Of a stretch of DNA of 64,000 nt, positions 29,078 through 62,042 are shown piece after piece; position 1 is the stretch's first letter, and each line of letters begins with the position of its first letter. The stretch comes from Clostridiales bacterium (lineage in GTDB: Bacteria > Bacillota > Clostridia > Oscillospirales > Oscillospiraceae): positions 1 through 64,000 of the forward strand of contig DUOX01000023.1 in NCBI GenBank assembly GCA_012838665.1. Reading direction: 5' to 3'. Made by a program: the position numbers and the translations under genes. Below the pieces are notes generated by a model that was not told the origin of the DNA, ran no database searches, and saw only the letters and a program-made list of their open reading frames with translations.

Positions 29078-29899
29078 ATGAAAGTACTTTTGATAGACAT
29101 AAATAAGTGTAACGGATGCTATAACTGCCAGATTGCCTGTAAAGATGAGCATGTGGGCAACGACTGGTCTCCTATAGCTAAACCGCAGCCTGACACGGGG
29201 CACTTCTGGATGAAGGTAACGGATATTGTGCAAGGCAGTGTACCCAAGGTGCGTGTGCGCTACATGCATGATATATGTCAGCACTGCGATGACGCTCCGT
29301 GCATAAAGGCATGCAAGTCAAATGCTGTCTACAAGCGGGAAGATGGCATAGTTATTATTGACCCGAACAAATGTACGGGAAATCGTAACTGTGTTGATGC
29401 TTGTCCATATAAGACTATTTACTTTAACTTCGACCTTAACATAGCTCAGAAGTGCACTATGTGCGCTCACCTTCTGGATGAAGGGTGGAAAGAGCCCCGT
29501 TGTGTGGATGCCTGTCCTACCGGCGCTCTTAGATTTGGCGAAGAAGAGGAATTGAAAGAATTAATTGCGGATGCCGAAATACTGTTTCCCGAATATGGTG
29601 CGCGTCCAAGGGTTTACTATAAAGGCTTGCCTAATAAGTACTTTGTTGCCGGCTCGGTATATGACCCGGATGATGATGAAGTTTTAGAGGGGGCCACCAT
29701 AACTCTGACTAATCAACAGACTGGCGCAACTTCCACCATAGTTACGGATTTGTTTGGGGATTTCTGGTTTGAAAGGCAGGAACCCGGCGTCTATCAGCTT
29801 AAGATGGAGATTGACGGATATATCCCCTTGATTATAAATGACATTGAGGTAACTAAAGATATTAACGTGGGGGATTTTGAGCTGCGAAAAGGACGTTGA
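29078..29899 (+). CDS. Transhydroxylase-like Fe-S small subunit 3, extra cluster
   Basis: A 273-residue subunit differing from copies 1 and 2 in its ligands. Motif I is CNGCYNCQIAC, motif II is complete (CQHCDDAPCIKAC), motif III is CTGNRNCVDAC with Asn at the second Cys position, and motif IV is CTMCAH followed by CVDACP. Three full [4Fe-4S] sites are predicted, plus a fourth site with three cysteines, which may hold [3Fe-4S] as in NarH, where a Trp replaces the same Cys. The C-terminal beta-sandwich is kept (LFGDFWFE). It probably serves large subunit 3 and could carry electrons from or to an external donor, unlike a redox-neutral transhydroxylase. Confidence 0.88.
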   Translation: MKVLLIDINKCNGCYNCQIACKDEHVGNDWSPIAKPQPDTGHFWMKVTDIVQGSVPKVRVRYMHDICQHCDDAPCIKACKSNAVYKREDGIVIIDPNKCTGNRNCVDACPYKTIYFNFDLNIAQKCTMCAHLLDEGWKEPRCVDACPTGALRFGEEEELKELIADAEILFPEYGARPRVYYKGLPNKYFVAGSVYDPDDDEVLEGATITLTNQQTGATSTIVTDLFGDFWFERQEPGVYQLKMEIDGYIPLIINDIEVTKDINVGDFELRKGR

Positions 29900-30792: not shown

Positions 30793-33432
30793 TTGAGTAA
30801 TTCTTTGCAGAAGAAAGGAAACACTGTACAAACCGGAACGGATAAAAAGACAGAAAAAACCGTAGTAAAAGGGTTGTCTTTTTTGGGAGTTAATATTGAC
30901 TCCAACATGGTCAGTGTAGACGTTAAGGACAATAAGATTATTAGGATTCGGCCTTTCCACTACGACTGGAAATACGACGTTGAGCCTTGGAGTATTGAAG
31001 CAAGAGGAAAGACTTTTAAAGCCGGCACAAAGGCGTTAATTCCGCCGTTTACTCTTGCTTACAAGAATCGAGTCAATTCACCCAACAGGGTATTGTATCC
31101 CTTAAAACGTGTGGATTGGGACCCCAACGGTGAACGCAATCCACAAAATCGCGGCATAAGCAAGTATGAGCGAATTAGCTGGGATGAGGCTACAGATATA
31201 ATCGCTGCCGAGATTAGGCGGATTATAGATAAATATGGGCCTACCGCTATATTGACTCAAGCAGATGGGCATGCCGAAACCAAAGTAGTGCATGCCCCTC
31301 ACGGCTGCTGCTGCAGGCTGCTGGACCTTTTAGGGGGATTTACCATGCAGTCCCGCAACCCGGACAGCTGGGAAGGCTGGTACTGGGGAGCCAAGCACGT
31401 CTGGGGCAATGAGCCTTTGGGCAAGGCTGCCTATCAATCCAACATCGTGCCGGACATGGCTGAACATACACAGATGATGCTCTATCCCGGCTGTGATCCG
31501 GAGACAACCACATGGGGCTGGGGAGGGCAAACAGTCAGCCAGCTTTGCTATTGGTTCAGCGAGCTGGGCATAAAACAGGTTTACATCTGCCCCGACCTTA
31601 ACTACGGGGCGGCTGTCCATGCGGATAAATGGATTCCCATTCTGCCCAATACCGACGCGGCTTTGTATCTGGGTATAGCTTATTACTGGATAGAAAAAGG
31701 CACTTATGACAAAGAGTATGTGGATACCCACGTTGTAGGCTTTGATAAGTTTAAAGCTTACGTTATGGGTGATGAGGACGGCATTCCCAAAACCCCCAAG
31801 TGGGCCAGCGAAAAGACCGGAATACCAAGCCGAATAATCAAGGCTTTGGCCAGGGCCTGGGCTTCCATGCCGACCTCAACCGCTCACGCCAACGGCGGCG
31901 GCCTGATAAGAGGGCCTTACGCCACGGAAAATGCCCGCCTTGAAGTATGTCTTCTCGGTATGCAGGGGCTGGGCAAGCCGGGCCGCCACATGTGGTCCAC
32001 TATTGAGTGGGGAATGATGGGAGACGAGACGCCTCCCCATAAATTTGGCAAATCCATACCGATACCGCGCCGTAAAAGGTACCCGAACCTGGATCCGGCA
32101 AGCAGGGGACCCTCTTTGATAAACCCCGAGTGTCCTCAGATAATCCCCAAGGACAAGTTCCATCAGGCAATTCTTGAACACAGCGCAGAGAATCCCATGA
32201 CCTGGTACGGCACCGTGCATTGCAGGGAGCTGACGGAAAACCAGTTTGTCAAGTATCAATATCCTGAGCCCGGCTGCTCCGAAATTCATATGATTTGGAC
32301 CGACTCTCCGTCCCTTATGACCTGCTGGAATGACTCCAACTACATAGCAAAAGCGTTCCAAAGCCCAAAAATTGAGTTCATTCTGGCGCAGCACCCGTGG
32401 CTGGAAAACGACTGCCTGTTTGCGGACATAATTCTTCCGGTTGCCACCAAGTTCGAGCTGGATGACATCGGCGTGGACAACCTTACCGCAGAATTCGGCG
32501 CTGTATTCCTGGATCCCAAGTGTGTAGAGCCCAAGGGCGAGTCTTTAAGCGATTACGAGGTAGTCTGCGCTATTGCCGAGAAGCTTGGCCTTCTGGAGGA
32601 GCTAACCCAGGGTAAAACCGTTGAAGATTGGATTAAAGTTGGTTTTGATGCCTCTGGTATTGAGGATGTTATTAGCTGGGATGAGTTCCAGGAGAAGGGG
32701 CACTATGTAATTGGCCACGATCCTGACTGGTACAAGTATGAAGTCGCACTGCGCAGTTTTGCCGAAGACCCCGAGAATAACCCGCTTACGACCCCTACGG
32801 GCAAGTTGGAGTTTTATTCACAACGGCTGGCGGAGCACTTCCCGGACGATGAAGAACGCCCACCGATACCCAAATGGGTAGAAAAGGGCGAAAGCCATGA
32901 TGAACGCCTGAGCGGGGACAGAGCCAAGAAATATCCGTATCTTGTGGTTTCCAACCACCCCCGCTGGAGAGTTCACTCCCAGCATGACGATATGCAATGG
33001 CTTCGTGAGATTGTAACATGCAAGATGATCGGTCCCGACGGATATGCCTATCAAACGATATGGATAAACCCCAAGGATGCGGAAAAGCACGGGATACGCA
33101 ATGGTGATGTAGTTGAGGCCTTCAATGAGCGGGGCAGCGTCCTTGTAGGTGCGTATGTAACCGAACGCATCATGCCCGGCGTTGTTTCCATAGACCACGG
33201 GGCGAGATATGACCCCATTGTCCCCGGCTGTCTTGATAGAGGAGGAGCCATCAACACCATTACCCCCCGAAACACCACATCTAAGAACGCTACCGGAATG
33301 GTATCCCAGGGTTTCCTGGTGGATATTAAACGTGCGGATTTGGACGCTCTCCGCCGGGAGTATCCGGAAGCGTTTTCCAGGCCCTACGACAGGGGTTCCG
33401 GACTTATGAGGGAACGGGTAATTAAAGACTAA
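30793..33432 (+). CDS. Transhydroxylase-like molybdenum large subunit 3
   Basis: An 879-residue DMSO-reductase-family protein, the most divergent of the three. It has an N-terminal extension of about 28 charged residues, no Fe-S motif and no Tat signal. H160 (ADGHAET) and D191-S192 (NPDSWEGWYWG) match the catalytic His, Asp and Mo-ligand Ser of the other copies. An unusual CCC run (GCCCRLLDLL) follows the His. TTG start at 30793 with a weak ribosome site. Together with small subunit 3 it could be a hydroxylase or dehydroxylase of the resorcinol-hydroxylase kind rather than a true transhydroxylase; the related resorcinol hydroxylase of denitrifiers belongs to the same group. Confidence 0.85.
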   Translation: MSNSLQKKGNTVQTGTDKKTEKTVVKGLSFLGVNIDSNMVSVDVKDNKIIRIRPFHYDWKYDVEPWSIEARGKTFKAGTKALIPPFTLAYKNRVNSPNRVLYPLKRVDWDPNGERNPQNRGISKYERISWDEATDIIAAEIRRIIDKYGPTAILTQADGHAETKVVHAPHGCCCRLLDLLGGFTMQSRNPDSWEGWYWGAKHVWGNEPLGKAAYQSNIVPDMAEHTQMMLYPGCDPETTTWGWGGQTVSQLCYWFSELGIKQVYICPDLNYGAAVHADKWIPILPNTDAALYLGIAYYWIEKGTYDKEYVDTHVVGFDKFKAYVMGDEDGIPKTPKWASEKTGIPSRIIKALARAWASMPTSTAHANGGGLIRGPYATENARLEVCLLGMQGLGKPGRHMWSTIEWGMMGDETPPHKFGKSIPIPRRKRYPNLDPASRGPSLINPECPQIIPKDKFHQAILEHSAENPMTWYGTVHCRELTENQFVKYQYPEPGCSEIHMIWTDSPSLMTCWNDSNYIAKAFQSPKIEFILAQHPWLENDCLFADIILPVATKFELDDIGVDNLTAEFGAVFLDPKCVEPKGESLSDYEVVCAIAEKLGLLEELTQGKTVEDWIKVGFDASGIEDVISWDEFQEKGHYVIGHDPDWYKYEVALRSFAEDPENNPLTTPTGKLEFYSQRLAEHFPDDEERPPIPKWVEKGESHDERLSGDRAKKYPYLVVSNHPRWRVHSQHDDMQWLREIVTCKMIGPDGYAYQTIWINPKDAEKHGIRNGDVVEAFNERGSVLVGAYVTERIMPGVVSIDHGARYDPIVPGCLDRGGAINTITPRNTTSKNATGMVSQGFLVDIKRADLDALRREYPEAFSRPYDRGSGLMRERVIKD

Positions 33433-33560: not shown

Positions 33561-34772
33561 ATGGCTATTCAAGTTGGCATTCCAGAGGCAGCAATGCGTG
33601 TTCTTACCGATCTGGTGGACAATTGCTGCGGAGTGGACGAGTATGCAGGGGCATTCAACCCCAAACTGAAAGAGCCCCTTATCGGACCTGGTAAGGAAGT
33701 CCTTATCATTGCCCATAAGGACGGCCTCTACGGCGGCGAAAACCTGATTGACGAAGAGGCAGTTGCCTGGTTGTCTTCCGTAATTACATCACGCGGCGCC
33801 CGCTGCTCAATTCTCTGGGTTGACGATCCTCAGAAGCCCCACGAGTGGCGTTATCCCCCGGTAGTTAAGGGCGCCATTGCCGGCGCTGACCTGATTATCA
33901 ACACATCCTTCCAGATGGCTGTGGAAGAGATCGCCGAGTTCCGCCATCACATTGAAGAAGCTGACACATGGATGGTCCGTCTGTTCCCCGTAACAAAGGA
34001 ACTGCTCATGACCGAATGGGCTCAGACTCCTTATGAGCTTACCAAGATTATGCGTCACGCTGCTTCTAAGGCTTTCCAGGGCAAAGAGGGCGACGAGTTC
34101 AAGTTCGTTATGACCGATCCCAACGGCACCCACCTTGAAGGTTTCACGACTCAGCCTAAGCCGCGCCCCGGCATCCCCGGACACGGTTATGCTTCCTGGC
34201 GTAGAGACGCAAGTCACTATCTGCCCTTCCCCGAGTGGGTACATCCTCCCATCAACTGCAAAAACGTCAACGGCGTATTTGTATTCAATTCCATGCTGAG
34301 CTGGTGGTCACCTGTTATCGGCATCGATCCCGAGTGGGAAACCCCCATTAAGATTGAAGTTGAAAACTGCAAGATGGTTGACATCACCGGTGGTTATGAG
34401 GCCAGAAAGCTCAAGAGGTTCCTGGAAGTCATGGTGGAAAAAGTTGGCGAAGGCATCTACAACTTTGATACCTTCCACTTTGGTATCCACCCCAACGCAC
34501 ATGTTTCCAAGTATCAGTGCCCGCATGATCTTTACAGACGCATTATTGACCATATGCATACTTCCAACGTCCACTGGCATATCGGCTCTGCCCCTGCCAA
34601 CCCCAACTACAACTTCTATCCCCATGTAACCGGCGACATACAGAATGCCACACTTACCGTCAACGACAGGCAGGTCTATGACAATGGCTGGCTCTGCTGC
34701 CAGGATGATCCTGAGGTTAGAGCTGTAGCGGCTAAGTATCCCGATCGTCCCGGTATCCCCGAGAGAGTCTAA
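33561..34772 (+). CDS. M29-aminopeptidase/NicX-like protein, possible ring-opening enzyme
   Basis: A 403-residue protein that I place only loosely with the M29 aminopeptidase-like family, which includes 2,5-dihydroxypyridine dioxygenase NicX. Clues are the N-terminal Rossmann-like half (EVLIIAHKDGLYGGENLIDEEA), EVENCKMVDITGGYEARKL and a late HFGIHPNAHVS block that could supply metal ligands. Many His and Asp residues cluster in the last third (HMHTSNVHWHIGSAP). It follows a strong AAAGGAGGAAAAAAT ribosome site and sits between the third molybdenum enzyme and a lactonase. An activity on a ring or ring-opened product is therefore likely, but the reaction is unknown. Confidence 0.6.
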   Translation: MAIQVGIPEAAMRVLTDLVDNCCGVDEYAGAFNPKLKEPLIGPGKEVLIIAHKDGLYGGENLIDEEAVAWLSSVITSRGARCSILWVDDPQKPHEWRYPPVVKGAIAGADLIINTSFQMAVEEIAEFRHHIEEADTWMVRLFPVTKELLMTEWAQTPYELTKIMRHAASKAFQGKEGDEFKFVMTDPNGTHLEGFTTQPKPRPGIPGHGYASWRRDASHYLPFPEWVHPPINCKNVNGVFVFNSMLSWWSPVIGIDPEWETPIKIEVENCKMVDITGGYEARKLKRFLEVMVEKVGEGIYNFDTFHFGIHPNAHVSKYQCPHDLYRRIIDHMHTSNVHWHIGSAPANPNYNFYPHVTGDIQNATLTVNDRQVYDNGWLCCQDDPEVRAVAAKYPDRPGIPERV

Positions 34773-37990: not shown

Positions 37991-38776
37991 ATGGTGGATT
38001 ATAGAAAAATGTTCGATTTAAAGGGCAAGCGCGCTGTAGTCATTGGCGGCGGCGGCGGAATCGGCGGTGCAATTGCCGAGGGCTTTGCAGCTGTAGGCGC
38101 CAGAGTGGCAATTGTTGGCCGCCGCCTTGAAAAACTTCAAAAACAAGCTGAAAAAATTAAAACCAATATCGGTGCACATGTGGAATGCTTCTCAGCTGAC
38201 TGCAGCAAAGAGGAATCTGTCGCAAAACTGTATGAGGATGTATGTGCGGTATTTGGCGGAGTGGACATTCTGGTTAACTCCCAGGGCGTTAACAAAAAGT
38301 TTTCTGCTCTTGAACATCCTGTAGATGAATGGGACGAAATGTTCGCTGCAAACGTCAGAAGCGTTATGCTGACCTGCAAATACTTCGCGCGCGGCATGAA
38401 GGAACGCAAATACGGAAGAATTATCAACGTTAGCTCAATAGGCGCTGTACGCTCAAAACAGAGCGATATCTCGGTTTGCTACAGCTCCACAAAGGGAGCA
38501 GTTAATGCATATTCCTTAAACTTGGCGGCAGGGCTGGCCGAGTTTGGCATAACAGTTAACTGCATTGGACCCATCATGACAGAAACCGAGATGATGAAAC
38601 CCATCTTTGAAAAGAATCCGGAGCTTCTGACGGGAACTATCGCCAGAGTTCCAGCCGGCCGTGTCTGCAAACCCGAAGACTGTGCCGCAATTGCCATTTT
38701 CTTTGCCACGGATGCGGCAGAATTCATTACCGGCCAGATTCTATATCCTGACGGCGGTTTATCCATACTTCAGTAA
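37991..38776 (+). CDS. Short-chain dehydrogenase, phloroglucinol reductase candidate
   Basis: A 261-residue classical SDR with cofactor motif GGGGGIGGAIAEG, NSQG, catalytic Ser in INVSSIG and YSSTK. The C-terminus ends YPDGG as in many SDRs. In anaerobes phloroglucinol is reduced by an NADPH-dependent SDR to dihydrophloroglucinol, and this gene stands first in an operon whose next genes match the following steps. Arg residues follow the second strand (IVGRRLEKL), which would suit NADPH. It shares the QGxNKKF block with the second SDR at 61263. ATG follows GAAAGGAAGTCATA. Confidence 0.85.
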   Translation: MVDYRKMFDLKGKRAVVIGGGGGIGGAIAEGFAAVGARVAIVGRRLEKLQKQAEKIKTNIGAHVECFSADCSKEESVAKLYEDVCAVFGGVDILVNSQGVNKKFSALEHPVDEWDEMFAANVRSVMLTCKYFARGMKERKYGRIINVSSIGAVRSKQSDISVCYSSTKGAVNAYSLNLAAGLAEFGITVNCIGPIMTETEMMKPIFEKNPELLTGTIARVPAGRVCKPEDCAAIAIFFATDAAEFITGQILYPDGGLSILQ

Positions 38777-38839: not shown

Positions 38840-39688
38840 ATGGGCAACAAACCAAAGGCTAGGTATCCTTATGTAAAGATGCCGACACTTGAAGATCTTC
38901 AGGAAAAGTACAAGGACTTTTTCATCTTTAAGTTTAAAGATGGCATCCTTGAAATGAGAATGCATTCAGATGGTGGCCCGGTAAAGTGGAGCTACCAGAT
39001 GCACCATGCACTTGCAGAGGTTTACACGGACATTGGACACGCAAGATGGGTTGAATGCCTGATTATCACCTGCACCGGTGACAAGTGGATTCACGAAAAC
39101 GACGCGGACTCCTTCAAGGAAATCGAACAGGGCAACGATGATGACGCTCGCTTCAACGTTCAGATTTATGACACTCTGAAGGTCTGTGAAAACTTCCTCA
39201 ACGACATTGAGATTCCCACAATTGCGGCTATCAACGGCCGTGGCTTCCATTGGGAGATGGCCCTGATGTGCGACATTACCCTCTGCACTCCCGACTTTAT
39301 CCTTCAGGACGACCACTTCGGTATGGCGAATGGACATGTTCCCGGCGACGGCATGACCATGATACTCCAGAAGGTCTGCGGCCTGAAACGTGGCGCTTAT
39401 ATGTCCCTGATGTGCCAGGGCATTGACGCGGAAGAGTGCCTGCGTATCGGCGCCGTCAATGAGATAGTAGAGCGCGACAAGATTGTAGATCGTGCATGGG
39501 AAATCGCCGAGTATATCATGACGCGCAGCCGTTCCTGCCGCCGCATGACTCACTACAACCTGATTCGTGAGTGGAAGGCCCTCTTTGAGCGTGATTTCCG
39601 TATCAATGTGTATTCCGAGATGTATTCCTTTAACCTCTCCAAGAGCAATCACGACTTTGACTACATAAAGTACGAGGGCGAGGAATAA
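38840..39688 (+). CDS. 6-oxocamphor-hydrolase-like crotonase, cyclic beta-diketone hydrolase candidate
   Basis: A 282-residue crotonase-fold protein that resembles 6-oxocamphor hydrolase more than CoA-ester hydratases. H137 (INGRGFHWEMALMCDI), H159 (LQDDHFGMANG) and D170 (HVPGDGM) correspond in order and near spacing to His122, His145 and Asp154 of that enzyme. The two catalytic glutamates of enoyl-CoA hydratases are absent. 6-Oxocamphor hydrolase cleaves a C-C bond in a cyclic 1,3-diketone (retro-Claisen). Dihydrophloroglucinol is a 1,3-diketone, so this protein may hydrolyse it to 3-hydroxy-5-oxohexanoate. It lies directly between the reductase candidate and the thiolase. Confidence 0.82.
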   Translation: MGNKPKARYPYVKMPTLEDLQEKYKDFFIFKFKDGILEMRMHSDGGPVKWSYQMHHALAEVYTDIGHARWVECLIITCTGDKWIHENDADSFKEIEQGNDDDARFNVQIYDTLKVCENFLNDIEIPTIAAINGRGFHWEMALMCDITLCTPDFILQDDHFGMANGHVPGDGMTMILQKVCGLKRGAYMSLMCQGIDAEECLRIGAVNEIVERDKIVDRAWEIAEYIMTRSRSCRRMTHYNLIREWKALFERDFRINVYSEMYSFNLSKSNHDFDYIKYEGEE

Positions 39689-39692: not shown

Positions 39693-40865
39693 ATGAAGCA
39701 AGCAGTGATAGTTTCCGCTGTGCGCTTACCTGTAGGCCGGGTAGGGGGTGCCCTATCTGGCTTCAGGCCTGAAAAGCTAGGCGGAATGATAGTTCGCGAA
39801 GCAATTAAGCGTGCAGGGATTGAAGACGAGATAATTGACGAGGTTATTTTCTGCTCCTGCGACAATGAAGATTTAAAGGTCGCTGCCCGTGTAGTCGCAC
39901 TCGAAGCCGGACTGCCTGTCTCAATACCGGCCTATCAAATTCAACGCGGTTGCGCATCATCTCTGACCGCAGTGTGGGACGGGGCAATGATGATTCAAAC
40001 CGGCTATGCCGAGACAATTGTCTGTGGCGGCTGTGAAAGCACCACAATGGCGCCCTATTTGATGAATAAGCCCACCCGGGCCTACAACGCCGCGCCTCCG
40101 GCATGGTGCGAGCCCATTTTCTCCCCGAAGGAGCCCTATGGCAACCTGCCTAACGGACTCACTGCCGAGGAGATTGCCCGCAGGTATAACATCACCCGCG
40201 AGCAGTGTGACGCCTTTGCTGTGGAAAGCCATCGCAAGGCGGCAGTTGCGTATGAAAACGGATACTTTGATAGCCAGATCCTGCCTGTGGAAGTACCCCT
40301 AAAGGGCGGCAAGATCATGATTTTTAAGCAGGATGAGCCCCTCCGGCCGGATACCAATATGGAGATCCTGTCAAAGCTCAGGCCGGCTTTTGAAAAGAAT
40401 GGAGTTTGTACCGCTGGAAACAGCTCACCTCTCACGGACGGCGCCTCCTGTGTAATTCTCATGGAGCGTGAAAAGGCCGAGAGAATGGGTCTCGATATTC
40501 TGGCAGTCGTTACCGGTTTTGCCGATGCGGGCTGCGAACCCCGCGTAATGGGCGAAGGCCCCATCTATGCCACAAGAAAGCTTCTGGCAAAAACCGGTCT
40601 TACCCTTGATGACTTTGACCTTATAGAAATGAATGAAGCTTTTGCGTCTCAGTCGATTCGCTGCTCCGATGTACTCGGCATGGATCCTGCGAAGCTCAAC
40701 GTCAACGGAGGAGCTATAGCCCTTGGCCATCCCTTTGCAGCCACGGGAACCATCCTTGTAACAAAGCTGGTTTATGAAATGCGCCGCCGTAACGCAAAGC
40801 GCGGGCTTGTCACCTTCTGCGTGGGCGGAGGATTAGGCGTTTCCGCCATGTTTGAAAGACCCTAG
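39693..40865 (+). CDS. Thiolase (acetyl-CoA acetyltransferase) 1
   Basis: A 390-residue thiolase. The nucleophile Cys lies in [13 protein letters not shown], the His in [17 protein letters not shown] and the second Cys in [11 protein letters not shown]. Family members cleave acetoacetyl-CoA with CoA to two acetyl-CoA, or run the reverse. In this operon it should process acetoacetyl-CoA from triacetate cleavage. It starts four bases after the crotonase stop, so the two are tightly coupled. Confidence 0.9.
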
Positions 40866-40984: not shown

Positions 40985-41012
40985 AAGCTATTAATTGAAG
41001 GGGGAAAAAGAA

Positions 41013-41831
41013 ATGAAAACTATTATTACAGCTGCCTTAACAGGCGCAGTAACATCCAAATCAAAGGCACCTGCTCTTCCCGTTACGCCGAAGGAAATTG
41101 CGGAAGACGGTATTCGCTGCTGGAAAGCCGGCGCTTCCATTCTCCACCTGCATATGCGCGACGAAAATGGCCGCGGAACAATGGATAAGGAGCGTTTTAG
41201 GGAAACCGTCAACATACTGCGCAACGAGTGCGACGCCATTTTGAATCTCACCTCCTCCGGCGAGCTGGGAGTTTCCTATGAGCGTCGTATGGAGCACATT
41301 ATAGAACTTAAGCCTGAAATGGCAACCTTCGACGCCGGCTCCATCAATGCCGGAGATGGTATCTTTGACAACACCATCGAGTTTTTGACCATGCTTGGAA
41401 AGTGCCTCATCGAAAACGGCGTAAAGCCCGAAGTTGAGGTTATGGACCTTGGCTTTATCTCCGCTGCCGAGCACTATACCAAAGTTGGCGTTTTAATTCC
41501 TCCTGTTCACTATCAGTTTGTTCTTGGTTTCGGCTTCCACGGCGCTCCGGCCACCCCCGAAAATCTTTGCTACATGAAGACCAAGCTGCCCGAAGGCTCC
41601 ACATGGTCTGCTTTCGGCGTAGGCGCTGCCCATATGCCCATTCTTTACACCACAGTTGCCCTTGGCGGCCACGTTCGTGTAGGCCTTGAGGACAACATTT
41701 GGTACAGCAAGGGCGTACTGGCAACCAACGTTATGCTTGTTGAGCGCGCGGGCAGAGTTATCCGTGAGTTTGGCAATGAGGTTGCGACTCCTGCCGAGGC
41801 ACGTGAAATTCTTGGTCTGAGCAAAAAATAG
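41013..41831 (+). CDS. BKACE-family beta-keto acid cleavage enzyme 1, triacetate lyase candidate
   Basis: A 272-residue DUF849 (BKACE) enzyme. The zinc motif is ILHLHMRDENG near the N-terminus and GLEDN near the C-terminus. BKACE enzymes transfer the acyl part of a beta-keto acid to CoA using acetyl-CoA and release acetoacetate. With 3,5-dioxohexanoate (triacetate) the products would be acetoacetyl-CoA and acetoacetate, the known step of the phloroglucinol route. ATG 41013 with GGGGGAAAAAGAA is chosen over an in-frame TTG at 40995. It is 11 bases before the dehydrogenase that would make its substrate. Confidence 0.88.
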   Translation: MKTIITAALTGAVTSKSKAPALPVTPKEIAEDGIRCWKAGASILHLHMRDENGRGTMDKERFRETVNILRNECDAILNLTSSGELGVSYERRMEHIIELKPEMATFDAGSINAGDGIFDNTIEFLTMLGKCLIENGVKPEVEVMDLGFISAAEHYTKVGVLIPPVHYQFVLGFGFHGAPATPENLCYMKTKLPEGSTWSAFGVGAAHMPILYTTVALGGHVRVGLEDNIWYSKGVLATNVMLVERAGRVIREFGNEVATPAEAREILGLSKK

Positions 41832-41842: not shown

Positions 41843-42802
41843 ATGAATACAGGTAAAATTGCCTTTGTTGGCGCTGGTCTTATTGGCAGTGGACTTGCCC
41901 TTAACTGCATTACAAATGGTATTCCTGTTGTTCTGCAGACAAGAAGGCAGGTTGACCTTTGCGCAAGTCGCATTGATTCAGGTCTGGCATTTTTCGTTGA
42001 GAACGGCATTATTACCCGTGAAAAGGCTGAGGAGGCAAGAAAGCTTGCAACCATTACCACCTCCATTCAGGAGGCTGTAACCGACGCCATAATGGTCCAG
42101 GAGTCAGGGCCTGACAGTATTGAGCTTAAGCATCAGCTTATTGAGCAGATTGAGACATATGCTCCCGCGGACGCGATTATTGCATCCAGTACTTCCAGCC
42201 GCTCCATAACTCAGGTTTTTGAAAAAGCCCGGCACCCTGAGCGCTGCATGGGCGGCCACCCCTACAATCCCGCATACCTTATTCCTCTGGTTGAGATAAC
42301 CAAGGGTGAAAAAACTTCAGATGAGTACGTTGCAAAGGCCAAGGAAATCTATGAAAAAATGGGCAAGGTTCCCGTTGTTCTGAACAAAGAGGTTATTGGC
42401 TTTATTGCTAACCGCTACCAGAGCGCCATTCACCGTGAAGCAGTTGACCTTGTTGAAAACGGCGTCTGCTCTGTTGAGGATGCGGACAAGGCCCTTGTTT
42501 ATAGTGTTGGCCTGCGCTGGAGCGTAGTGGGCCAGTTCCTGACCATGCATCTCGGTGCAGCTCCTGAAGGCCTTGGCGGATTTAATGAGAAGTATCACAT
42601 TAACCCCGATGCTCCGGACCCGCGCCTCAGCAACATGCCCACATGGACCACTTTCCCCAAGGACTGGGACAAACACGCTGCTGTGGGTTTGGAAGAAGCC
42701 ATTGCCAATCGTCCGCCTGAGACAGGCAATGACATGGCCTCCATCGAAAAATGGAGAGACAAAATGCTTGTGGAAACCCTTCGCCTGCACGGACTGCTTT
42801 AA
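41843..42802 (+). CDS. 3-hydroxyacid dehydrogenase, carnitine/gulonate-dehydrogenase type
   Basis: A 319-residue protein of the 3-hydroxyacyl-CoA dehydrogenase superfamily. The NAD motif is FVGAGLIGSGLALN and the catalytic block MGGHPYNPAYLIPLVEI. The C-terminal half (REAVDLVENGVCSVEDADKA, then GLRWSVVGQFLTMHLG) follows the free-acid branch containing L-carnitine and L-gulonate 3-dehydrogenases, which do not need a CoA ester. Oxidation of 3-hydroxy-5-oxohexanoate to 3,5-dioxohexanoate would fit the neighbouring BKACE, much as carnitine dehydrogenase is paired with a BKACE elsewhere. Confidence 0.85.
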   Translation: MNTGKIAFVGAGLIGSGLALNCITNGIPVVLQTRRQVDLCASRIDSGLAFFVENGIITREKAEEARKLATITTSIQEAVTDAIMVQESGPDSIELKHQLIEQIETYAPADAIIASSTSSRSITQVFEKARHPERCMGGHPYNPAYLIPLVEITKGEKTSDEYVAKAKEIYEKMGKVPVVLNKEVIGFIANRYQSAIHREAVDLVENGVCSVEDADKALVYSVGLRWSVVGQFLTMHLGAAPEGLGGFNEKYHINPDAPDPRLSNMPTWTTFPKDWDKHAAVGLEEAIANRPPETGNDMASIEKWRDKMLVETLRLHGLL

Positions 42803-42826: not shown

Positions 42827-43885
42827 ATGTATACTCTCGTTATTAACCCTGGCTCTACATCCACAAAAGTTGCTATTTTTGAAGATGCAAAAGAGTTGCA
42901 CAAAAAAACAATTACCCACACCAAAGAGGAACTGGCAGGATTTCTTGACATCCCTTCCCAGCTTGATTTCCGCTATAATCTGGTGATGAAGTTTCTGAAT
43001 GAGGCGAGTTATCCTCCCTCAAAGCTTGACTGCATAATTTCCCGCGGCGGTTCACCCCCTAACGCACGTTCCGGCGCGACGGAGATTAACGAAGCTCTGG
43101 TGACAGCTCTTAAGGAAAGGCCAAAGGAGCCCCATCCCGCATGCCTGGGTCCCATTATCGCCTACAAGCTGGCTAAGGAGGCCAACCTCCCGGCCTATAT
43201 GTACGACCCAATCACCGCCGACGAGCTGAACCCCTACGCCAGGGTTTTTGGCATGAAGGGTATTGAGCACGACAGCATGTGCCACGTCCTCAACACCCGG
43301 GCCATGGGCATAGCCGTTGCAAAAGAACTTGGACGTCCCTTTGAGGAGTCGACCTTTATTGTCGCGCACTTTGGCGGCGGCAACTCCATTGCCTGCTGGC
43401 ACAAAGGCCTCCTTCACGACGTGGTACCAGGCGATGCCGGAACATTCTCCGCCGAGCGCTGCGGCCCCATCCGTGCTGAGCGTCTTATTGAGCTTTGCCA
43501 GATTTATGATAAAAAGACTCTTATCGGCTGGTATCACGGCAAGGGCGGCATGGTATCTCTCCTGGGTACAAATGACCTGAGAGAAGTCAGGAAAATGGTT
43601 GAAGCCGGCGACGAATACGCCACCCTCGTTCAGGAAGCCATGGCATATCAGCTTGCCAGATCCATAGCATTCCTTTTTCCTACTGTTTTCGGCAAGGTGG
43701 ACGGAATTATCCTTACCGGCGGCGGCGCATACTGGGATAAGCTGGCAAACGACGTATCCGAACGTCTTGCTTTCCTGAATGTGCCCGTATTTGTCCGCCC
43801 CGGCGAAAACGAAATGCAGGCTTTGGCAGAAGGTGCGTTGCGTGTTATGGCCGGCGAGGAAAAAGCTTACATATACGAAGGATAA
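42827..43885 (+). CDS. buk: Butyrate kinase
   Basis: A 352-residue acetokinase-family enzyme. The N-terminal phosphate block is VINPGSTSTKVAIF, followed by FIVAHFGGGNSIACWHKGLLHDV and ILTGGGAYWDK. It makes ATP from butyryl phosphate, which needs a phosphate butyryltransferase; one is encoded at 54105. It is the last gene of the SDR-crotonase-thiolase-BKACE operon and suggests that the carbon ends partly as butyrate, with other acyl phosphates possible. ATG 42827 follows ACAGGAGGTAAGAT, and a terminator begins ten bases after the stop. Confidence 0.92.
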   Translation: MYTLVINPGSTSTKVAIFEDAKELHKKTITHTKEELAGFLDIPSQLDFRYNLVMKFLNEASYPPSKLDCIISRGGSPPNARSGATEINEALVTALKERPKEPHPACLGPIIAYKLAKEANLPAYMYDPITADELNPYARVFGMKGIEHDSMCHVLNTRAMGIAVAKELGRPFEESTFIVAHFGGGNSIACWHKGLLHDVVPGDAGTFSAERCGPIRAERLIELCQIYDKKTLIGWYHGKGGMVSLLGTNDLREVRKMVEAGDEYATLVQEAMAYQLARSIAFLFPTVFGKVDGIILTGGGAYWDKLANDVSERLAFLNVPVFVRPGENEMQALAEGALRVMAGEEKAYIYEG

Positions 43886-47244: not shown

Positions 47245-48477
47245 TCACTTCCTCTCGCAAAGTTCCAGAAGCACGCCGTTCGTTGCCTTGGGATGAATAA
47301 AGATGATTCTTGCGCCGCCTGCGCCGTAACGGGGTGTTTCGTCAATGAGACGAATGCCTTTTTCCTTCAGCTCCGCAAGAGCCGCGTCAATATCATCGAC
47401 GCGTATCGCTATATGCTGCACGCCCTCGCCGTATTTCTCAATAAAGCGGGCAACGGGGCCGTCCGGGGAGGTGCTTTCCAGGAGCTCGAACTCGCAGTCT
47501 CCGCAGGGCATAAACATGACCTTGACCTTCTGTTCCTCCACCTCTTCAATTCCGGTGGGCTTTATTCCCAGAACCGCTTCATAAAACTTTGCGGCATCTT
47601 CAAGATTCTTCACGGCAACGCCAATATGATCAAAATGCAGACACTTCATTTTACTCTCTCCTTTATTCACTTGTAGTCCTAAACGGCTTCCGCCGGATAA
47701 CCTAAGGGCCCGGCGCAGAAGTATTTCTCCTGAATCGTTTAGTTTTTCAAAAACATTATCTATCGAATCGAGAAGCTTGTCTAAACCCATTCCGGTTTCG
47801 GCGCTTACCATAATTATTGGTATTTGCTCATATTTTTCACCGGCTGAAAGGCTAATCCCTGCTCGGAGTTCCACGGCCACCCTGTCGGCGCCCGGGAGAT
47901 CGCTTTTATTGACAACGAAAATATCGCCGATTTCGAGAAGTCCTGCCTTTATGGCCTGAATATCGTCTCCCAGACCGGGGACCGCCAGCACCATCACAAG
48001 GTCGGCGTGGTTTATGATTTCGACCTCGCCTTGCCCCACGCCCACAGTTTCAATAATTATGACGTCATAACCGCAGGCGTCCAGCACATTAATGGCGCCT
48101 CTTGTGGCGACGGAAAGGCCTCCATAGGCCCCACGGGTACCCATGGAGCGGAAAAACACGCCCTCATCCGGGTCAGAGTTTAAACGTACCCGGTCGCCGA
48201 GGATGGCCCCACCGGTAAAGGGACTTGTGGGGTCAATCGCCACAACGCCGACAGTTTCCCTGCGCTGGCGGAATAAGGAAATCAAGGCGTTTGTAAGTGT
48301 ACTCTTGCCCGCTCCCGGTGGGCCTGTTATGCCGATTACCTTTGCCTTGCCCAGCTTTCCGGCAAGTTTTCTAATAACCTCGGACGAGGACCCCTGCTCC
48401 ACGCGGCTGATGAGTTTTGATATTGCTCTTTTGTTTCCTTCCAGCGCGGAAGCGATAAGCAGGTCCAGCTCTTCCAT
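47245..48477 (-). CDS. MeaB G-protein fused in frame to methylmalonyl-CoA epimerase
   Basis: A 410-residue open frame. Residues 1-276 are MeaB/ArgK, the GTPase that protects and loads methylmalonyl-CoA mutase: P-loop [43 protein letters not shown]. Residues 277-410 are a complete methylmalonyl-CoA epimerase ([34 protein letters not shown] end) that interconverts (R)- and (S)-methylmalonyl-CoA. The epimerase keeps its own ATG (47649) with AAAGGAGAGAGTAAA upstream, and these bases are translated as linker. MeaB lacks its usual C-terminal arm of some 40 residues. A recent stop-codon loss or frameshift is likely; the epimerase may also be made separately. Confidence 0.88.
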
Positions 48478-48478
48478 A

Positions 48479-48871
48479 TCAGCCGAACCTTTCATTCAGG
48501 AACTGGACAATTGCGGAGGTGGGGGTGCCGGGGGTGAATATGGCAGCAACGCCCTTCTCCAAAAGACCGGGGATGTCCTCTTCCGGGATAACGCCGCCGC
48601 CAAAAACCATTATGTCCTCGGCGTTGTTTTCCTTAAGCAGTTCAATAACCCTGGGGAAAAGGTGATTGTGCGCTCCGGAGAGAAGGGACAGACCGATTGC
48701 GTCCACGTCCTCCTCGATGGCGGCGGTGACAATCTGCTCGGGAGATTGACGGAGACCGGTGTAAATAACCTCAAATCCGGCATCGCGCAGGGCGCGGGAC
48801 ACAACTTTAACGCCGCGGTCGTGGCCGTCAAGCCCGGGCTTTGCCATAAGAATTCTAATTTTCTTTTCCAT
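48479..48871 (-). CDS. Methylmalonyl-CoA mutase small (B12-binding) subunit
   Basis: A 130-residue cobalamin-binding domain: [19 protein letters not shown] carries the DxHxxG His that binds cobalt from below, followed by [14 protein letters not shown] and [10 protein letters not shown]. It completes the mutase with the large subunit encoded directly upstream, the split form common in archaea and clostridia. Its stop overlaps the spacing of the MeaB start, so translation is coupled. Confidence 0.93.
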
Positions 48872-51796: not shown

Positions 51797-51833
51797 TTCA
51801 CACCATCCTTTAAATACAGGGGGCACTTTTTAA

Positions 51834-52793
51834 CTAGATTTTCTCCTTAATCAAGTGCCTGGTAGTTCTTAATACTTCCATCAGTTTCTTGTCGCGCTCT
51901 TTTGAAAGCTCGGCTGCGCTGCGGCCGCTGTAGTCGTAAAAGCCCTTTCCGGTCTTTACGCCCAGCTCGCCTTTATCCACATGGTCGAACAGAACCTTGG
52001 GGCGCTTGCTGGTTTCCGGCATTACATAGCTGGCGTTTATAATATTGTTGGCGCTGATGTCAAGGCCGGTGAAATCATAACGCTGGACAAGTCCCAGCAC
52101 CATGCCTCTGGGCATCAATGAAGCCTTTACTGCCAGGTCAAGCTGCTCGGGAGTGCAGATGCCGTTGTCAAGGAGATAGAAAATCTCGGTGTTGAGCAGT
52201 ATCTGGATGCGGTTGATTATGTATCCGGGCACAAATTTCTCCAGACGCACGGGGGTCTTTCCGCATTTCTCCAAAAGGTCGATTGCAAGCTGCATTGTTT
52301 CTTCACTGGTCTTTTCGCCCTTTGCCACTTCAACCAGAGGGAGAATATGAGGAGGCGCAAACCAGTGGGCGGTTGTGAAGTTTGGAAGTCTTCTCTCAGG
52401 AACATACAGAAAGGGATTAAGGGAGGAAGCGTTGGACACTATGACCGCGTCCTCGGGAAGAAGCTCGTCCAGTTGTTTAAAAATCTCGGTCTTAATGTCG
52501 GGCTTCTCGGCCACCGTTTCCTGAACAAACTGTGCTCCCTCGACTGTTTCCTCAACACTTCTGTGGAAGGAAATCCGGGATTTGATGTCGTCGGCCTGGG
52601 CCTGCGTCAGCTCGCCTTCCTCAACGAAGGTTCCCAGATTGGTCTCAAGCATGACTTTTGCTTTGTCGAGGGTTTCCTGCCTGCGTGTGTATACGGAAAC
52701 CTCATATCCGCCGGAAGCATAGGACTGGGCAATGCCCGGGCCCATGGTTCCCGCGCCAAGTACCGCAATCTTTTTTATATCTTTCAGTTCCAT
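51834..52793 (-). CDS. 3-hydroxyacyl-CoA / 3-hydroxyacid dehydrogenase 2
   Basis: A 319-residue dehydrogenase with NAD motif AVLGAGTMGPGIAQSYAS and catalytic block TTAHWFAPPHILPLVEV, where 3-hydroxybutyryl-CoA dehydrogenases have HFFNPxPxMxLVE. The replacement of FN by FA and the length (319 against about 282) point to the free-acid branch, as with the copy at 41843. It sits 12 bases from BKACE 2, repeating the dehydrogenase-BKACE pairing. Its substrate may be a 3-hydroxy-dicarboxylate, given the mutase genes downstream; this is inference. Confidence 0.82.
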   Translation of the reverse strand: MELKDIKKIAVLGAGTMGPGIAQSYASGGYEVSVYTRRQETLDKAKVMLETNLGTFVEEGELTQAQADDIKSRISFHRSVEETVEGAQFVQETVAEKPDIKTEIFKQLDELLPEDAVIVSNASSLNPFLYVPERRLPNFTTAHWFAPPHILPLVEVAKGEKTSEETMQLAIDLLEKCGKTPVRLEKFVPGYIINRIQILLNTEIFYLLDNGICTPEQLDLAVKASLMPRGMVLGLVQRYDFTGLDISANNIINASYVMPETSKRPKVLFDHVDKGELGVKTGKGFYDYSGRSAAELSKERDKKLMEVLRTTRHLIKEKI

Positions 52794-52805
52794 TTTTACA
52801 ACCTC

Positions 52806-53648
52806 TTATACGTGTTTTACAAGGCCCAAAATCTCGCGAGCCTCGGCTGCTGTGGCAATCTCGCGTCCTGCCAGCTCGGAAATCTTTACCGTGCGCTCAA
52901 CAAGGGATGCGTTAGTTGCCAATACGCCTTTATCCATGTAAATGTTGTCTTCAAGACCTATGCGCAGACCGTCGCAGCCGGCGGAAAGGGCAGCCAGCAA
53001 AACGGGCAGGTGTGAGCGTCCGATACCGGTTGCGGACCAGGTTGAACCGGGCTGCATTTTGGGGAGAAGGAAGTTCAGGCTGTCGATATTGCCGTCCATA
53101 CCGCCGGAAACGCCGAGAACGAACTGATAGTGCAGAGGAGCCTTGAGGAAGCCCTTCTTCAGGTAGTAGTCTACGTTGCCCATCATGCCGCCGTCGAAAA
53201 TCTCAAGCTCGGGCTTGATTTGAAGTTCCTGTGCCACAAGTCCCAGTCTCTCCAGGAATTGAGGGGTGTTGAGAAATACGTAGCTGTTTGCCCAGTTCAT
53301 TGTACCGGGGTCGTAGGAGCACATTTCGGGCTTCAGAATAGGCAGGTGTGCCAAGCGCATATCTTCGGGGAACTTTGCGCCGGAGGTGGTCAGGTTAAGA
53401 ACTATGTCCACGTTGGCCTTGGCGCACTCTTCGCGCACCAGCTCGATAACCTGCACAAAGCGTTCGGTTTCCATGGTGTTCTTGCCTTCCTCGTCACGGA
53501 CGTGGAAGTGTACTATTGCCGCACCTGCTTTGGCGCAGGCCACTGCGTCTTTTGCGATTTCTTCAGGAGTGATAGGAACGTACGGAGTTTGTTTCTTAGT
53601 GGTTCCGGCACCGCATAGTGCTGCTGTGATGATTATTTTCTTTCCCAT
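52806..53648 (-). CDS. BKACE-family beta-keto acid cleavage enzyme 2
   Basis: A 280-residue BKACE with zinc motif IVHFHVRDEEGKN, NLTTSGAKFPEDMRLAH in the substrate region and GLRIGLEDNIYMDKG near the end. First gene of the long minus-strand operon that ends with the Na+-pumping decarboxylase. BKACE members are known to use several beta-keto acids; cleavage of 3-oxoadipate would give succinyl-CoA plus acetoacetate and feed the mutase encoded in the same operon. Residues differ from copy 1 in the loop after the zinc motif, consistent with another substrate. Confidence 0.87.
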   Translation of the reverse strand: MGKKIIITAALCGAGTTKKQTPYVPITPEEIAKDAVACAKAGAAIVHFHVRDEEGKNTMETERFVQVIELVREECAKANVDIVLNLTTSGAKFPEDMRLAHLPILKPEMCSYDPGTMNWANSYVFLNTPQFLERLGLVAQELQIKPELEIFDGGMMGNVDYYLKKGFLKAPLHYQFVLGVSGGMDGNIDSLNFLLPKMQPGSTWSATGIGRSHLPVLLAALSAGCDGLRIGLEDNIYMDKGVLATNASLVERTVKISELAGREIATAAEAREILGLVKHV

Positions 53649-55025: not shown

Positions 55026-55088
55026 GCTCAAAGCGGAATACCGCGCTGTGAGCCGCCCTGCACTTGTGTATGTTGAACCATAGACAGC

Positions 55089-55117
55089 GGAGCTGTTATC
55101 GCGCCGATAGCAGCTCC
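55089..55117 (+). other. Intercistronic hairpin after ptb
   Basis: GGAGCTG and CAGCTCC with inner TATC/GATA around GCGCC form a stem with one mismatch. No T-run follows, so it probably shapes mRNA stability between ptb and the Fe-S subunit gene. Confidence 0.5.
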
Positions 55118-55176
55118 CGCAGCCATAGCTCAACTCAAACTGCGGGCAATGAATTGAGAATCGAAGGAGAATTCTT

Positions 55177-55503: not shown

Positions 55504-55517
55504 TTTGGAGGAAGCAA

Positions 55518-57848: not shown

Positions 57849-57882
57849 TAAAGGCCATTATTTAGAATTTGAGGTAATGCTT

Positions 57883-58611
57883 ATGTCTGGAAAAGTAAAC
57901 GAATTTTTGGAGCTTCTCGGCAGCTTTGACGTGGTTGACCTTACCCACACCATGGAAAACAATATGCCGACGTTCCCAAGCCATACCAAGTTCTTCCTCA
58001 ACAAGTGGATAAGCCCGGGAGATCCGGCGCTCTTGAACGTAATGATTATGGGCGACCATACCGGCACACACTTTGACACTCCTGCCCATTTCCTGCATGA
58101 CGAAAGCGACCCCGTAAGAAGGTTCTGCCATGAAATAGAGCCTTTTGAACTGACGGGACGTGCGGTGAAGCTCACCTTTGGTCCATTCCAAGCGGAAAAC
58201 TGCACAATCAGCGCTCAGGACATAAAGGACTGGGAGGCCAAAAATGTGGAAATCCGCGAGGGCGACATTGTGCTTATAGACTACCAGTGGGCACATAAAT
58301 GGGCGCTTGTAACCGAAAACAACGACTTTATGGACAAATGGCCCGGCATTGACGAGAGCGCCGCGGATTATCTGCTGGAGAAGAAGATTCGGGTTATCGG
58401 CACGGATTGCGCCAGCGTAGACTCCGCCGATGGGGACGGCTTTAAATTCCCCGCCCACCTGAAGCTGCTGGTCAGGGGAGTGCTGATGATTGAAAATCTC
58501 AAGAACCTGTCTTCGCTTCCCACAGAATTTATCTTTATGGGCATGCCCCTGAAGATAAAGAATGCCGGCGGTTCACCCATTAGAGCGGTTGCCCTTATCC
58601 CCAAAAACTGA
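57883..58611 (+). CDS. Cyclase-family metal hydrolase 1
   Basis: A 242-residue protein of the cyclase / kynurenine-formamidase-like family. The metal signature is GDHTGTHFDTPAHF, with DLTHTM near the start and GTDCASVD later. Family members hydrolyse amides, lactones or cyclic diketones with Mn2+ or Zn2+. It lies 34 bases after the molybdenum enzyme. ATG 57883 is preferred for its GAGG spacing, although an ATG two codons earlier is possible. It differs clearly from the two copies downstream. Confidence 0.85.
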   Translation: MSGKVNEFLELLGSFDVVDLTHTMENNMPTFPSHTKFFLNKWISPGDPALLNVMIMGDHTGTHFDTPAHFLHDESDPVRRFCHEIEPFELTGRAVKLTFGPFQAENCTISAQDIKDWEAKNVEIREGDIVLIDYQWAHKWALVTENNDFMDKWPGIDESAADYLLEKKIRVIGTDCASVDSADGDGFKFPAHLKLLVRGVLMIENLKNLSSLPTEFIFMGMPLKIKNAGGSPIRAVALIPKN

Positions 58612-59611: not shown

Positions 59612-59658
59612 ATTTTGTTAATCCTAATCTTATAAATAAAGCAAGGAGGCAGAAAAAT

Positions 59659-60465
59659 ATGCCATACGTAGTTGATCCATACAGTGGGCTGAGACTGTAC
59701 GAGCTAAGTCATGTTTGGAACAGTGAAGCACCGTCTTACCCCGGTCAAGCGGACGTAATAATGAGGCGTGGAGTAAAACATGCGGAGCACGGTGTTTTAG
59801 CTTGGAGAATAAGCACCTCACTGCATACGGGAACCCACATGAACGCCCCTCTGCACATGGTGCAGCGCGGCGCGGACCTGGCATCAATCCCCGTGGAAAG
59901 GCTGTTCGGCAACGGTGTTGTTCTTGACATTCCCAAGGGAAGCTTTGAGACAATCACTGCCGAAGACTTGGAGAATGCACAGCCCGTTAAGGAGGGTGAC
60001 ATCGTTGTTATTAACACCGGATGGCACCACAAGTATTCCGATTCTCTGGAGTACTACGGAGAGGCTCCCGGTCTGACCGAGTGCGCGGCACAGTGGCTAA
60101 TCGACAAGAAGGTAAAGATTGTTGCGGTTGACACGCCTTTCGTTGATTGCCCGCTCGCAACCTCTATGGGGCCCCACCGCGGCGGACCCCAAATGAAGCG
60201 CCTGGCCAAAACCTACGTGGAAAGAACAGGCAAGGATCCCAACGCTGAGCACGGTAAGTGGTATATTGCCCACAAGCTGCTGGCCGCTGCCGGAATACCC
60301 ACAATTGAACAGGTCGGCGGAGACGTGGACGAGCTTTCCGGAAAGCGCGCTACATTTGCGGCACTGCCCTGGAAGTTTGCACATGGCGACGCTTGTCAGA
60401 TTCGCTTCGTGGCCATGACAGACCCCGAAGGCAAGGTTCGCATTGACAGTGGTAAGGAGGCATAA
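59659..60465 (+). CDS. Cyclase-family metal hydrolase 2
   Basis: A 268-residue paralogue of the cyclase family. The signature is SLHTGTHMNAPLHM, with Asn where the motif has Asp. It ends two bases before the next cyclase gene and aligns with it along its full length (INTGxHHK, and GIPxIExVGG). The Asn substitution could change metal binding or turn the pair into a heteromer with one fully equipped subunit. ATG follows AAGGAGGCAGAAAAAT. Confidence 0.82.
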   Translation: MPYVVDPYSGLRLYELSHVWNSEAPSYPGQADVIMRRGVKHAEHGVLAWRISTSLHTGTHMNAPLHMVQRGADLASIPVERLFGNGVVLDIPKGSFETITAEDLENAQPVKEGDIVVINTGWHHKYSDSLEYYGEAPGLTECAAQWLIDKKVKIVAVDTPFVDCPLATSMGPHRGGPQMKRLAKTYVERTGKDPNAEHGKWYIAHKLLAAAGIPTIEQVGGDVDELSGKRATFAALPWKFAHGDACQIRFVAMTDPEGKVRIDSGKEA

Positions 60466-60467: not shown

Positions 60468-61250
60468 ATGGCACTGCAATTTTTTGATTTGTCACACGTT
60501 TTCACTCAGTTTTCTCCTGAGTGGCCATCCAGTCCCAGCATAGATATTGACGTACTTAAGTTCCACGCTAAGGACGGAGTTTACGAGCTCAACTGGGAAG
60601 GCATCATGCACCGCAGCACACATATGGATGCTCCCCTGCATGTTACCGAGAATACTCCGGACATTATGGATTATCCCCTGTGGCGTCTTTGCGGAACCGG
60701 TGTCTGCATCAACGCTCCCAAGGACAAGTGGGGAATCATCACCCCCGAAGATTTGGAAGCCGCCACACCCAAAATCCAGGAGGGCGACATCGTAATCATA
60801 AACACCGGATTCCATCACAAGTTTGCCGATACCGACGAATATTTTGCATACGGCTGCGGAGCAAACGGCGCCGCTGCAAACTGGTTCGTTGAAAAGAAGG
60901 TTAAGATGGTGGGTTACGGCTGCCAGGCCAACGACCATCCCATTGCGACGAAGCTGGTGGATCACGGCCTTGGCCCCACACAACCGCATCTCATTGAAGA
61001 ATACAAGGAATATACCGGACGTGACCCCAAGGAAGACTTTCCCTACTGGGAGGATGCCCACAAGAACCTTATGGTCAAGGGCGGCATTCCCGGCATAGAG
61101 AACGTTGGCGGTCAGCTTGACGATATTACCGGCAAGCGCTGCTTCTTTATGGCCTTCCCCTGGCGCTGGAAGGGCGGAGACGGATGCATAGTCCGCGTTG
61201 TGGCCATCACCGACCCCGATGGCGACTTCCGGTTTGAAACAGGCATGTAA
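60468..61250 (+). CDS. Cyclase-family metal hydrolase 3
   Basis: A 260-residue cyclase-family protein with signature IMHRSTHMDAPLHV; the first His-x-Gly reads His-Arg-Ser. It is the tandem partner of the preceding gene. Hydrolysis of a cyclic ketone or lactone derived from a reduced aromatic ring is the most natural role next to the SDR at 61263. ATG 60468 overlaps the spacing of the upstream stop (TAAGGAGGCATAACA), a classic translational coupling. Confidence 0.82.
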   Translation: MALQFFDLSHVFTQFSPEWPSSPSIDIDVLKFHAKDGVYELNWEGIMHRSTHMDAPLHVTENTPDIMDYPLWRLCGTGVCINAPKDKWGIITPEDLEAATPKIQEGDIVIINTGFHHKFADTDEYFAYGCGANGAAANWFVEKKVKMVGYGCQANDHPIATKLVDHGLGPTQPHLIEEYKEYTGRDPKEDFPYWEDAHKNLMVKGGIPGIENVGGQLDDITGKRCFFMAFPWRWKGGDGCIVRVVAITDPDGDFRFETGM

Positions 61251-61262: not shown

Positions 61263-62042
61263 ATGAATTTGTTTGATTTACACGGCAAAACCGCAGTAGT
61301 TGTGGGAGGAGCCGGCGGCTTAGGCCAGGCAATTGCCCAGGGCATTGCCGAGGCCGGCGCAAAAACCATTATTGCAAGCAGAAAAGAAGAATCCCTCAAA
61401 CGCGCACAGGAAGAAATTAAGGCATCTGGCGGCGTGGACGTGGGGTACCTGACAGTTGACGCCACTGATGAAGAGAGCGTTATCCAGCTAGCATCAAAGG
61501 CCGTGGAAGAGCTGGGCAGGGTTGACATCCTGGTTTGCGCCCAGGGCCTTAATAAAAAGTTTCCTGCTGAGGATTTCCCCATGGATACTTTCAGAATGAT
61601 GCTGGATGTAAACGTTGCGGGCGTAATGAACTGCTGCAAGCATTTTGGAAAGCATATGATGCAAAACGGCTACGGCAAGGTAATTATTCTCAGCTCCGTT
61701 CGTGGTAAGATTGCCACAAGAGGGGCAGGCAACGCGGCATACTGCGCCACAAAGGGCGCCGTGGACATGCTGACAAAGCAGCTCGCCAGCGAGTTTGGCC
61801 CCCATGGAATTACCGTAAACGCTATCGGTCCCACGGTTACCGAAACACCCATGATGACTGCTGTAATTGAGCAGCGTGGTGGTGACAAGTACCGTAAGGA
61901 ACAGGCGGCACAGCTGCCTATGCGCCGCATGGCCAAGCCCGAGGATTGCGTGGGCGCTGCCGTGTTCCTTGCAGCTCCGGCTTCCGACTTCTTGACTGGC
62001 AATATTCTTTATCCGGATGGCGGGTTGACCGCAGTAGGATAA
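61263..62042 (+). CDS. Short-chain dehydrogenase 2
   Basis: A 259-residue SDR with cofactor motif GGAGGLGQAIAQG, CAQG, ILSSVRGK and YCATK. It shares QGxNKKF and the YPDGG end with the SDR at 37991, so the two are paralogues with related substrates. It follows cyclase 3 by 12 bases (AAGGGGGACTGGTT ribosome site) and is followed by a terminator. Reduction of a polyhydroxylated ring before hydrolysis by the cyclases is a reasonable reading. Confidence 0.87.
   Translation: MNLFDLHGKTAVVVGGAGGLGQAIAQGIAEAGAKTIIASRKEESLKRAQEEIKASGGVDVGYLTVDATDEESVIQLASKAVEELGRVDILVCAQGLNKKFPAEDFPMDTFRMMLDVNVAGVMNCCKHFGKHMMQNGYGKVIILSSVRGKIATRGAGNAAYCATKGAVDMLTKQLASEFGPHGITVNAIGPTVTETPMMTAVIEQRGGDKYRKEQAAQLPMRRMAKPEDCVGAAVFLAAPASDFLTGNILYPDGGLTAVG

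Follow-up and report, generated by a model that had tools for sequence, protein, structure and literature searches.

The phloroglucinol pathway of C. scatologenes consists of PGR, DPGC, TfD and TAL, the last of which is a triacetate-cleaving member of the BKACE (beta-keto acid cleavage enzyme) family (PMC10470551). Its dihydrophloroglucinol cyclohydrolase, CsDPGC, belongs to the Mn2+-dependent cyclase family PF04199 (PMC10470551). In the literature found, a Mn2+ cyclase was the only ring opener described for the phloroglucinol pathway. Searches covering mostly open-access papers yielded nothing on point that linked a crotonase or oxocamphor hydrolase with phloroglucinol, and likewise nothing on point on hydroxyhydroquinone reductase or on resorcinol/cyclohexanedione. 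Here, we compared these systems with a crotonase gene, CROT (P0001; 38840..39688, forward strand), in the window, the whole analyzed stretch of 64,000 nucleotides, whose host assembly comprises 61 contigs and is 98% complete with 0.2% contamination.

The CROT open reading frame is intact, with an ATG start, 282 amino acids, and an aggagg ribosome-binding site upstream of the start. Promoter and terminator scans gave chance-level scores only. The Pfam scan returned ECH_1 as the sole match and no PF04199 cyclase domain. None of the NCBIfam crotonase models listed scored above the cut-off for CROT, and the BadI and BamA models were not among the best 25 NCBIfam models. The original prediction had assigned the gene to a 6-oxocamphor hydrolase (OCH)-like enzyme because H137, H159, and D170 matched the catalytic His122, His145, and Asp154 of OCH. 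The alignment agreed with these three pairs and added W50, H55, and E260, which the prediction had not listed, as the equivalents of Trp40, His45, and Glu244; all six OCH active-site residues compared were kept in CROT. The codons of H137, H159, D170, and E260 lie at 39248..39250, 39314..39316, 39347..39349, and 39617..39619 on the forward strand, respectively. The glutamates of CoA hydratases had also been described as absent, which proved correct for the second, replaced by H159, but not for the first, which is still Glu (E139) in CROT as in OCH and the Anabaena beta-diketone hydrolase (ABDH), so that the catalytic pair is incomplete. H137, H159, and D170 were invariant in an alignment of about 110 OCH-like homologues and absent from all seven ordinary crotonases aligned, which carry Glu in the H159 column, thereby indicating that the match did not arise by chance.

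Among all PDB chains, CROT matched ABDH (2j5g, 1.2e-29) and OCH (1o8u, 1.6e-29) best, followed by a hydratase with an E value of 9e-13. The comparison of a predicted structure with OCH gave a consistent result. The model, built from 38 sequences, reached a mean pLDDT of 93.5 and retrieved OCH and ABDH best in Foldseek (1e-21, against 1e-14 for the next class); its structural Z scores were 33.5 and 32.5, respectively, against 28.7 for the best hydratase. The nearest solved relatives are ring openers or structures with a ring-derived ligand. A placement within the enoyl-CoA hydratases had been named beforehand as evidence against the assignment, and in our tree, which comprised 86 sequences with the seven ordinary crotonases as outgroup and had some long branches and a short search, the OCH-like group was separate from this outgroup (SH-aLRT 99). 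P0001 fell in a clade of 13 close orthologues (SH-aLRT 97) nested within a group of 17 (SH-aLRT 99), and OCH and ABDH branched on long branches outside 77 other OCH-like sequences, including the P0001 clade. An enoyl-CoA hydratase identity was rejected on the basis of the PDB matches, residues, tree, and fold. Altogether, sequence, residues, phylogeny, and predicted fold indicate that CROT is probably an OCH/beta-diketone hydrolase-type retro-Claisen C-C hydrolase of the crotonase superfamily, which would open a cyclic 1,3-diketone independently of CoA and metal. A second OCH-like crotonase of the same genome (L022, 9730-10746 on contig C40; 36%) has no pathway neighbours and, as read by eye, lies near topoisomerase-like genes.

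CROT had further been placed between a reductase candidate and thiolase/BKACE genes, and this arrangement was confirmed. On the forward strand, SDR_A, a candidate polyhydroxybenzene reductase (37991..38776), ends 63 bp before CROT, and thiolase A (39693..40865, from the domain scan) begins after a gap of 4 bp. BKACE_A (40995..41831), the 3-hydroxyacyl-CoA-dehydrogenase-like HCDH_A (41843..42802), which is a candidate 3-hydroxy acid dehydrogenase, and butyrate kinase (42827..43885, from domain scans) follow on the same strand. Upstream of CROT are a transhydroxylase-like beta (Fe-S) subunit (29078..29899, forward strand), an alpha subunit related to the Pelobacter pyrogallol-phloroglucinol transhydroxylase (30793..33432, forward strand), and genes reading as a branched-chain-type ABC transporter. 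The scan of the cluster genes revealed no CoA ligase, and BKACE takes a free keto acid with acetyl-CoA; both fit a CoA-free substrate for CROT. The accompanying enzymes diverged from the canonical set. In BKACE_A, the Trp found in TAL (KCE Glu14 position) is replaced by V, though the protein shares 55-56% identity with the TALs from E. ramulus and Flavonifractor; in these two, PGR, TfD, DPGC, and TAL were assigned by gene order and the motifs given in PMC10470551, not by accession. HCDH_A is just 27-28% identical to TfD homologues. In addition, a 403-amino-acid protein without a Pfam or NCBIfam match is encoded at 33561-34772, and a 50% relative of it adjoins CROT and an SDR in L028. At 47245-48495, within a methylmalonyl-CoA gene set, there is by eye an apparent fusion of a MeaB-like GTPase and a methylmalonyl-CoA-epimerase-like stretch.

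The same genome carries two more gene sets of this kind. Module B (50597-62042 in the window) contains a thiolase, HCDH_B (51834..52793, reverse strand), BKACE_B (52806..53648, reverse strand), a phosphate-butyryltransferase-like gene, an acetylene-hydratase-like molybdoenzyme (55500-57848), three PF04199 cyclases, and SDR_B (61263..62042, forward strand). The cyclases are all on the forward strand: cyclase 1 (57877..58611) is isatin-hydrolase-like and of the rival ring-opening type, and cyclases 2 (59659..60465) and 3 (60468..61250) lie in tandem. Canonical PGR, TfD, and DPGC genes are found at the end of the 11-kb contig C3 (L130, 7972-10848), with identities of 67% to E. ramulus, 54% to Flavonifractor, and 81% to Flavonifractor, respectively. 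Cyclases 1 to 3 were considered as DPGC and rejected: cyclase 3 retains Trp but not Tyr from the WPY motif, and it is 35-36% identical to DPGC, compared with 75-81% for the C3 cyclase. The molybdoenzyme upstream of the C3 genes is 35% identical to that at 55500 in the window. Because of the C3 set and the third set at 50-62 kb, the genome has three ring-opening modules in parallel, of which the CROT module (38-44 kb) is one.

The reductases beside CROT were compared in an SDR tree to which 29 background SDRs had been added. The CROT-adjacent SDRs of six loci (L028, L029, L031, L033, L034, and L035) and the PGRs of E. ramulus, a Flavonifractor, and contig C3 formed one clade of 12 rows (SH-aLRT 99), all of which carry an FRSxxTxW loop that was found in none of the 29 background SDRs. 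The CROT-associated SDRs grouping with PGR came from a Desulfobacteraceae MAG and, among the Proteobacteria, from Hyphomicrobiales, Rhodospirillales, Alteromonadaceae, and Sphingomonas. SDR_A and SDR_B of the window fell outside the PGR subclade, in a neighbouring subclade of the wider PGR-like SDR clade, and both are without the loop.

A genome scan for CROT homologues gave 79 loci, and in a phylum-wide sample they were rare (2 of 398 genomes). Orthologues at 59-83% identity were found in Pseudomonadota, Thermodesulfobacteriota, Actinomycetota, Planctomycetota, and SAR324. An SDR lay within 10 kb of CROT in 9 of 12 close-orthologue loci versus 14 of 64 distant family members, and an HCDH in 7 of 12 versus 6 of 64. 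The full order SDR-CROT-thiolase-BKACE-HCDH-buk-ptb-transhydroxylase is kept in L027, which was binned as Accumulibacter and is possibly misbinned. In L031 and L033 (Alteromonas and Aliiglaciecola), CROT forms a contiguous group with two cyclases, an SDR, and an HCDH. A fumarylacetoacetate-hydrolase-family protein occurs near CROT in L029, and proteins of the same cluster are found in L035 and L048; this protein may stand in for BKACE at these loci. Sulfatase genes are located near CROT in L029 (a Hyphomicrobiales MAG) and L031 (Alteromonas portus), where a sulfated polyphenol is a possible source. In L028 and L036, the genes next to CROT encode hydantoinase A/B-like proteins, a TRAP transporter, and an amidohydrolase with 44-78% identity to the product of the gene at 15550 in the window. 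The pyrogallol transhydroxylase family is much expanded in the genomes of L028, L030, L032, and L038 (G462, G464, G465, and G469), with up to 19 large-subunit matches per genome. Related arrangements were seen at more distant loci. In Flavonifractor and Intestinimonas (L100, L101, and L102), two OCH-like crotonases in tandem are flanked by thiolase and BKACE; this further module has an HCDH but no SDR match nearby. In Sedimentibacter and other Bacillota (L066, L074, L075, L077, and L079), a distant OCH-like crotonase of about 33% identity is found beside relatives of butyrate kinase, BKACE, phosphate butyryltransferase, and thiolase.

Co-occurrence was examined in 16 CROT-carrying genomes (the window's and 15 others), several of which are MAGs and may be incomplete: canonical DPGC (at least 67%) accompanied CROT in six, the tandem cyclase 2/3 pair in nine including the window's, and neither of the two in six. 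The genome of Sphingomonas immobilis (G467) showed zero cyclase homologues with the DPGC query, and an SDR, CROT, and HCDH were present. A simple replacement of DPGC by CROT in the window organism was rejected on the basis of the C3 set, module B, and these co-occurrence counts.

We tentatively regard dihydrophloroglucinol as the single most likely natural substrate of CROT. It is a plausible candidate because orthologues adjoin SDRs sister to the phloroglucinol reductases. The molecule has a mirror plane, and its opening would be a desymmetrization like that catalyzed by OCH. The residues around the catalytic positions are near-identical between the window CROT and the orthologues beside PGR-like SDRs, which argues for one shared substrate. 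In the window's genome, however, dihydrophloroglucinol opening is already provided for by the canonical PGR, TfD, and DPGC on C3. The original prediction of an OCH-like opener of this ring was thus supported in its enzymatic part, by sequence, residues, tree, fold, neighbours, and the lack of a CoA ligase in the cluster; the substrate is plausible but weakened by the C3 set, the six genomes with both enzymes, SDR_A without the PGR loop, and BKACE_A without the TAL Trp. It is conceivable, although short of probable, that a metal- and CoA-free OCH-like crotonase is a second, non-homologous dihydrophloroglucinol opener spread over several phyla, acting alone in some organisms, such as Sphingomonas, and stacked with two cyclase-type modules in polyphenol specialists such as the window's bacterium, which is probably a gut member of the Flavonifractor family.

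Otherwise, the substrate of CROT would be a close relative derived from another polyhydroxybenzene. A somewhat doubtful but serious alternative is that the same chemistry acts on a different reduced polyphenol, for example, dihydro-hydroxyhydroquinone or a hydroxylated dihydrophloroglucinol from 1,2,3,5-tetrahydroxybenzene, in one of three parallel reduce-open-oxidise-cleave modules for different polyphenols. The presence of CROT, cyclases 2/3, and the C3 genes in a single genome, the co-occurrence of CROT with canonical DPGC, and the divergence of SDR_A, HCDH_A, and BKACE_A from their canonical counterparts are consistent with this alternative, whereas the near-identical catalytic surroundings and the Sphingomonas genome, with its PGR-like SDR set and no match to the DPGC query, point back to dihydrophloroglucinol. 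It is improbable that CROT cleaves a later open-chain beta-diketone acid such as triacetate instead of a ring. The adjacency in L031 and L033 would allow a cyclase to open the ring and CROT to act later; however, the gene rows of the window and L027 include BKACE, whose family accounts for triacetate cleavage in C. scatologenes (PMC10470551), the fumarylacetoacetate-hydrolase-family protein near other orthologues could perform the triacetate step, and the nearest solved relatives point to rings. Finally, it is very unlikely that CROT is a common CoA-dependent hydratase/isomerase or a ring hydrolase that depends on CoA, as BadI and BamA do, since the sole ECH_1 match, the thiolase, 3HCDH, and butyrate kinase neighbours, and the retained E139 are outweighed by the exchange of the second glutamate for His, the grouping with OCH/ABDH in sequence, fold, and phylogeny, the NCBIfam results, and a cluster without a CoA ligase among the scanned genes.

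For the preferred reading, in which CROT opens a reduced polyphenol ring, we infer the reaction, its cofactor independence, and every substrate of the pathway from sequence, predicted fold, phylogeny, conservation, and gene order. The transhydroxylase-type molybdoenzyme would rearrange the hydroxyls on the polyphenol ring, and SDR_A with NAD(P)H would reduce the ring to a cyclic 1,3-diketone. The OCH mechanism is the model for the next step, in which H137 and its neighbours would hold the ring carbonyl or diketone, and water activated by H159 with D170 and E260 would attack one ring carbonyl. The C-C bond would then break with an enol(ate) leaving group to give an open-chain keto acid, with no need for metal, CoA, or other cofactors. 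HCDH_A would oxidize the 3-hydroxy group after ring opening, BKACE_A would split the beta-keto acid using acetyl-CoA, and the action of thiolase and butyrate kinase would lead to acetyl-CoA, butyrate, and ATP.

If an OCH-like crotonase opens dihydrophloroglucinol, surveys that rely on DPGC overlook this step in many organisms, and a family of biocatalysts prized for the cleavage of symmetric diketones would acquire a plausible natural function in the degradation of tannins and flavonoids. Should CROT act on another reduced polyphenol, the gene set would indicate a branch of polyphenol degradation that is so far undescribed.

Compared with known systems, CROT most closely resembles OCH (PDB 1o8u, 1szo), with which it shares the crotonase fold (Z, 33.5), 31% identity over 245 residues, and, as proposed, the CoA-free retro-Claisen opening of a cyclic 1,3-diketone. 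However, the two are only about 30% identical, the P0001 clade has residues of its own (a two-residue insert in HFGMANGHVPGDG, QMHH, and EMYSFN), and OCH belongs to a terpene context whereas CROT is in a polyphenol context. ABDH (alr4455; PDB 2j5g, 2j5s) has the fold and the His/His/Asp set in common with CROT but shows 28-29% identity and has F where CROT has W50. CsDPGC (PMC10470551) occupies a comparable place in an SDR, 3HCDH-like, and BKACE gene set and has the same proposed retro-Claisen reaction type; in contrast, it comes from a family unrelated to CROT and requires Mn2+ (PMC10470551), and the window's genome carries a DPGC relative separately. The C. scatologenes pathway (PMC10470551) has counterparts of its SDR, 3HCDH-like, BKACE, thiolase, and butyrate kinase genes in the CROT cluster, whereas in the window a crotonase stands in place of the cyclase, with diverged SDR_A, HCDH_A, and BKACE_A.
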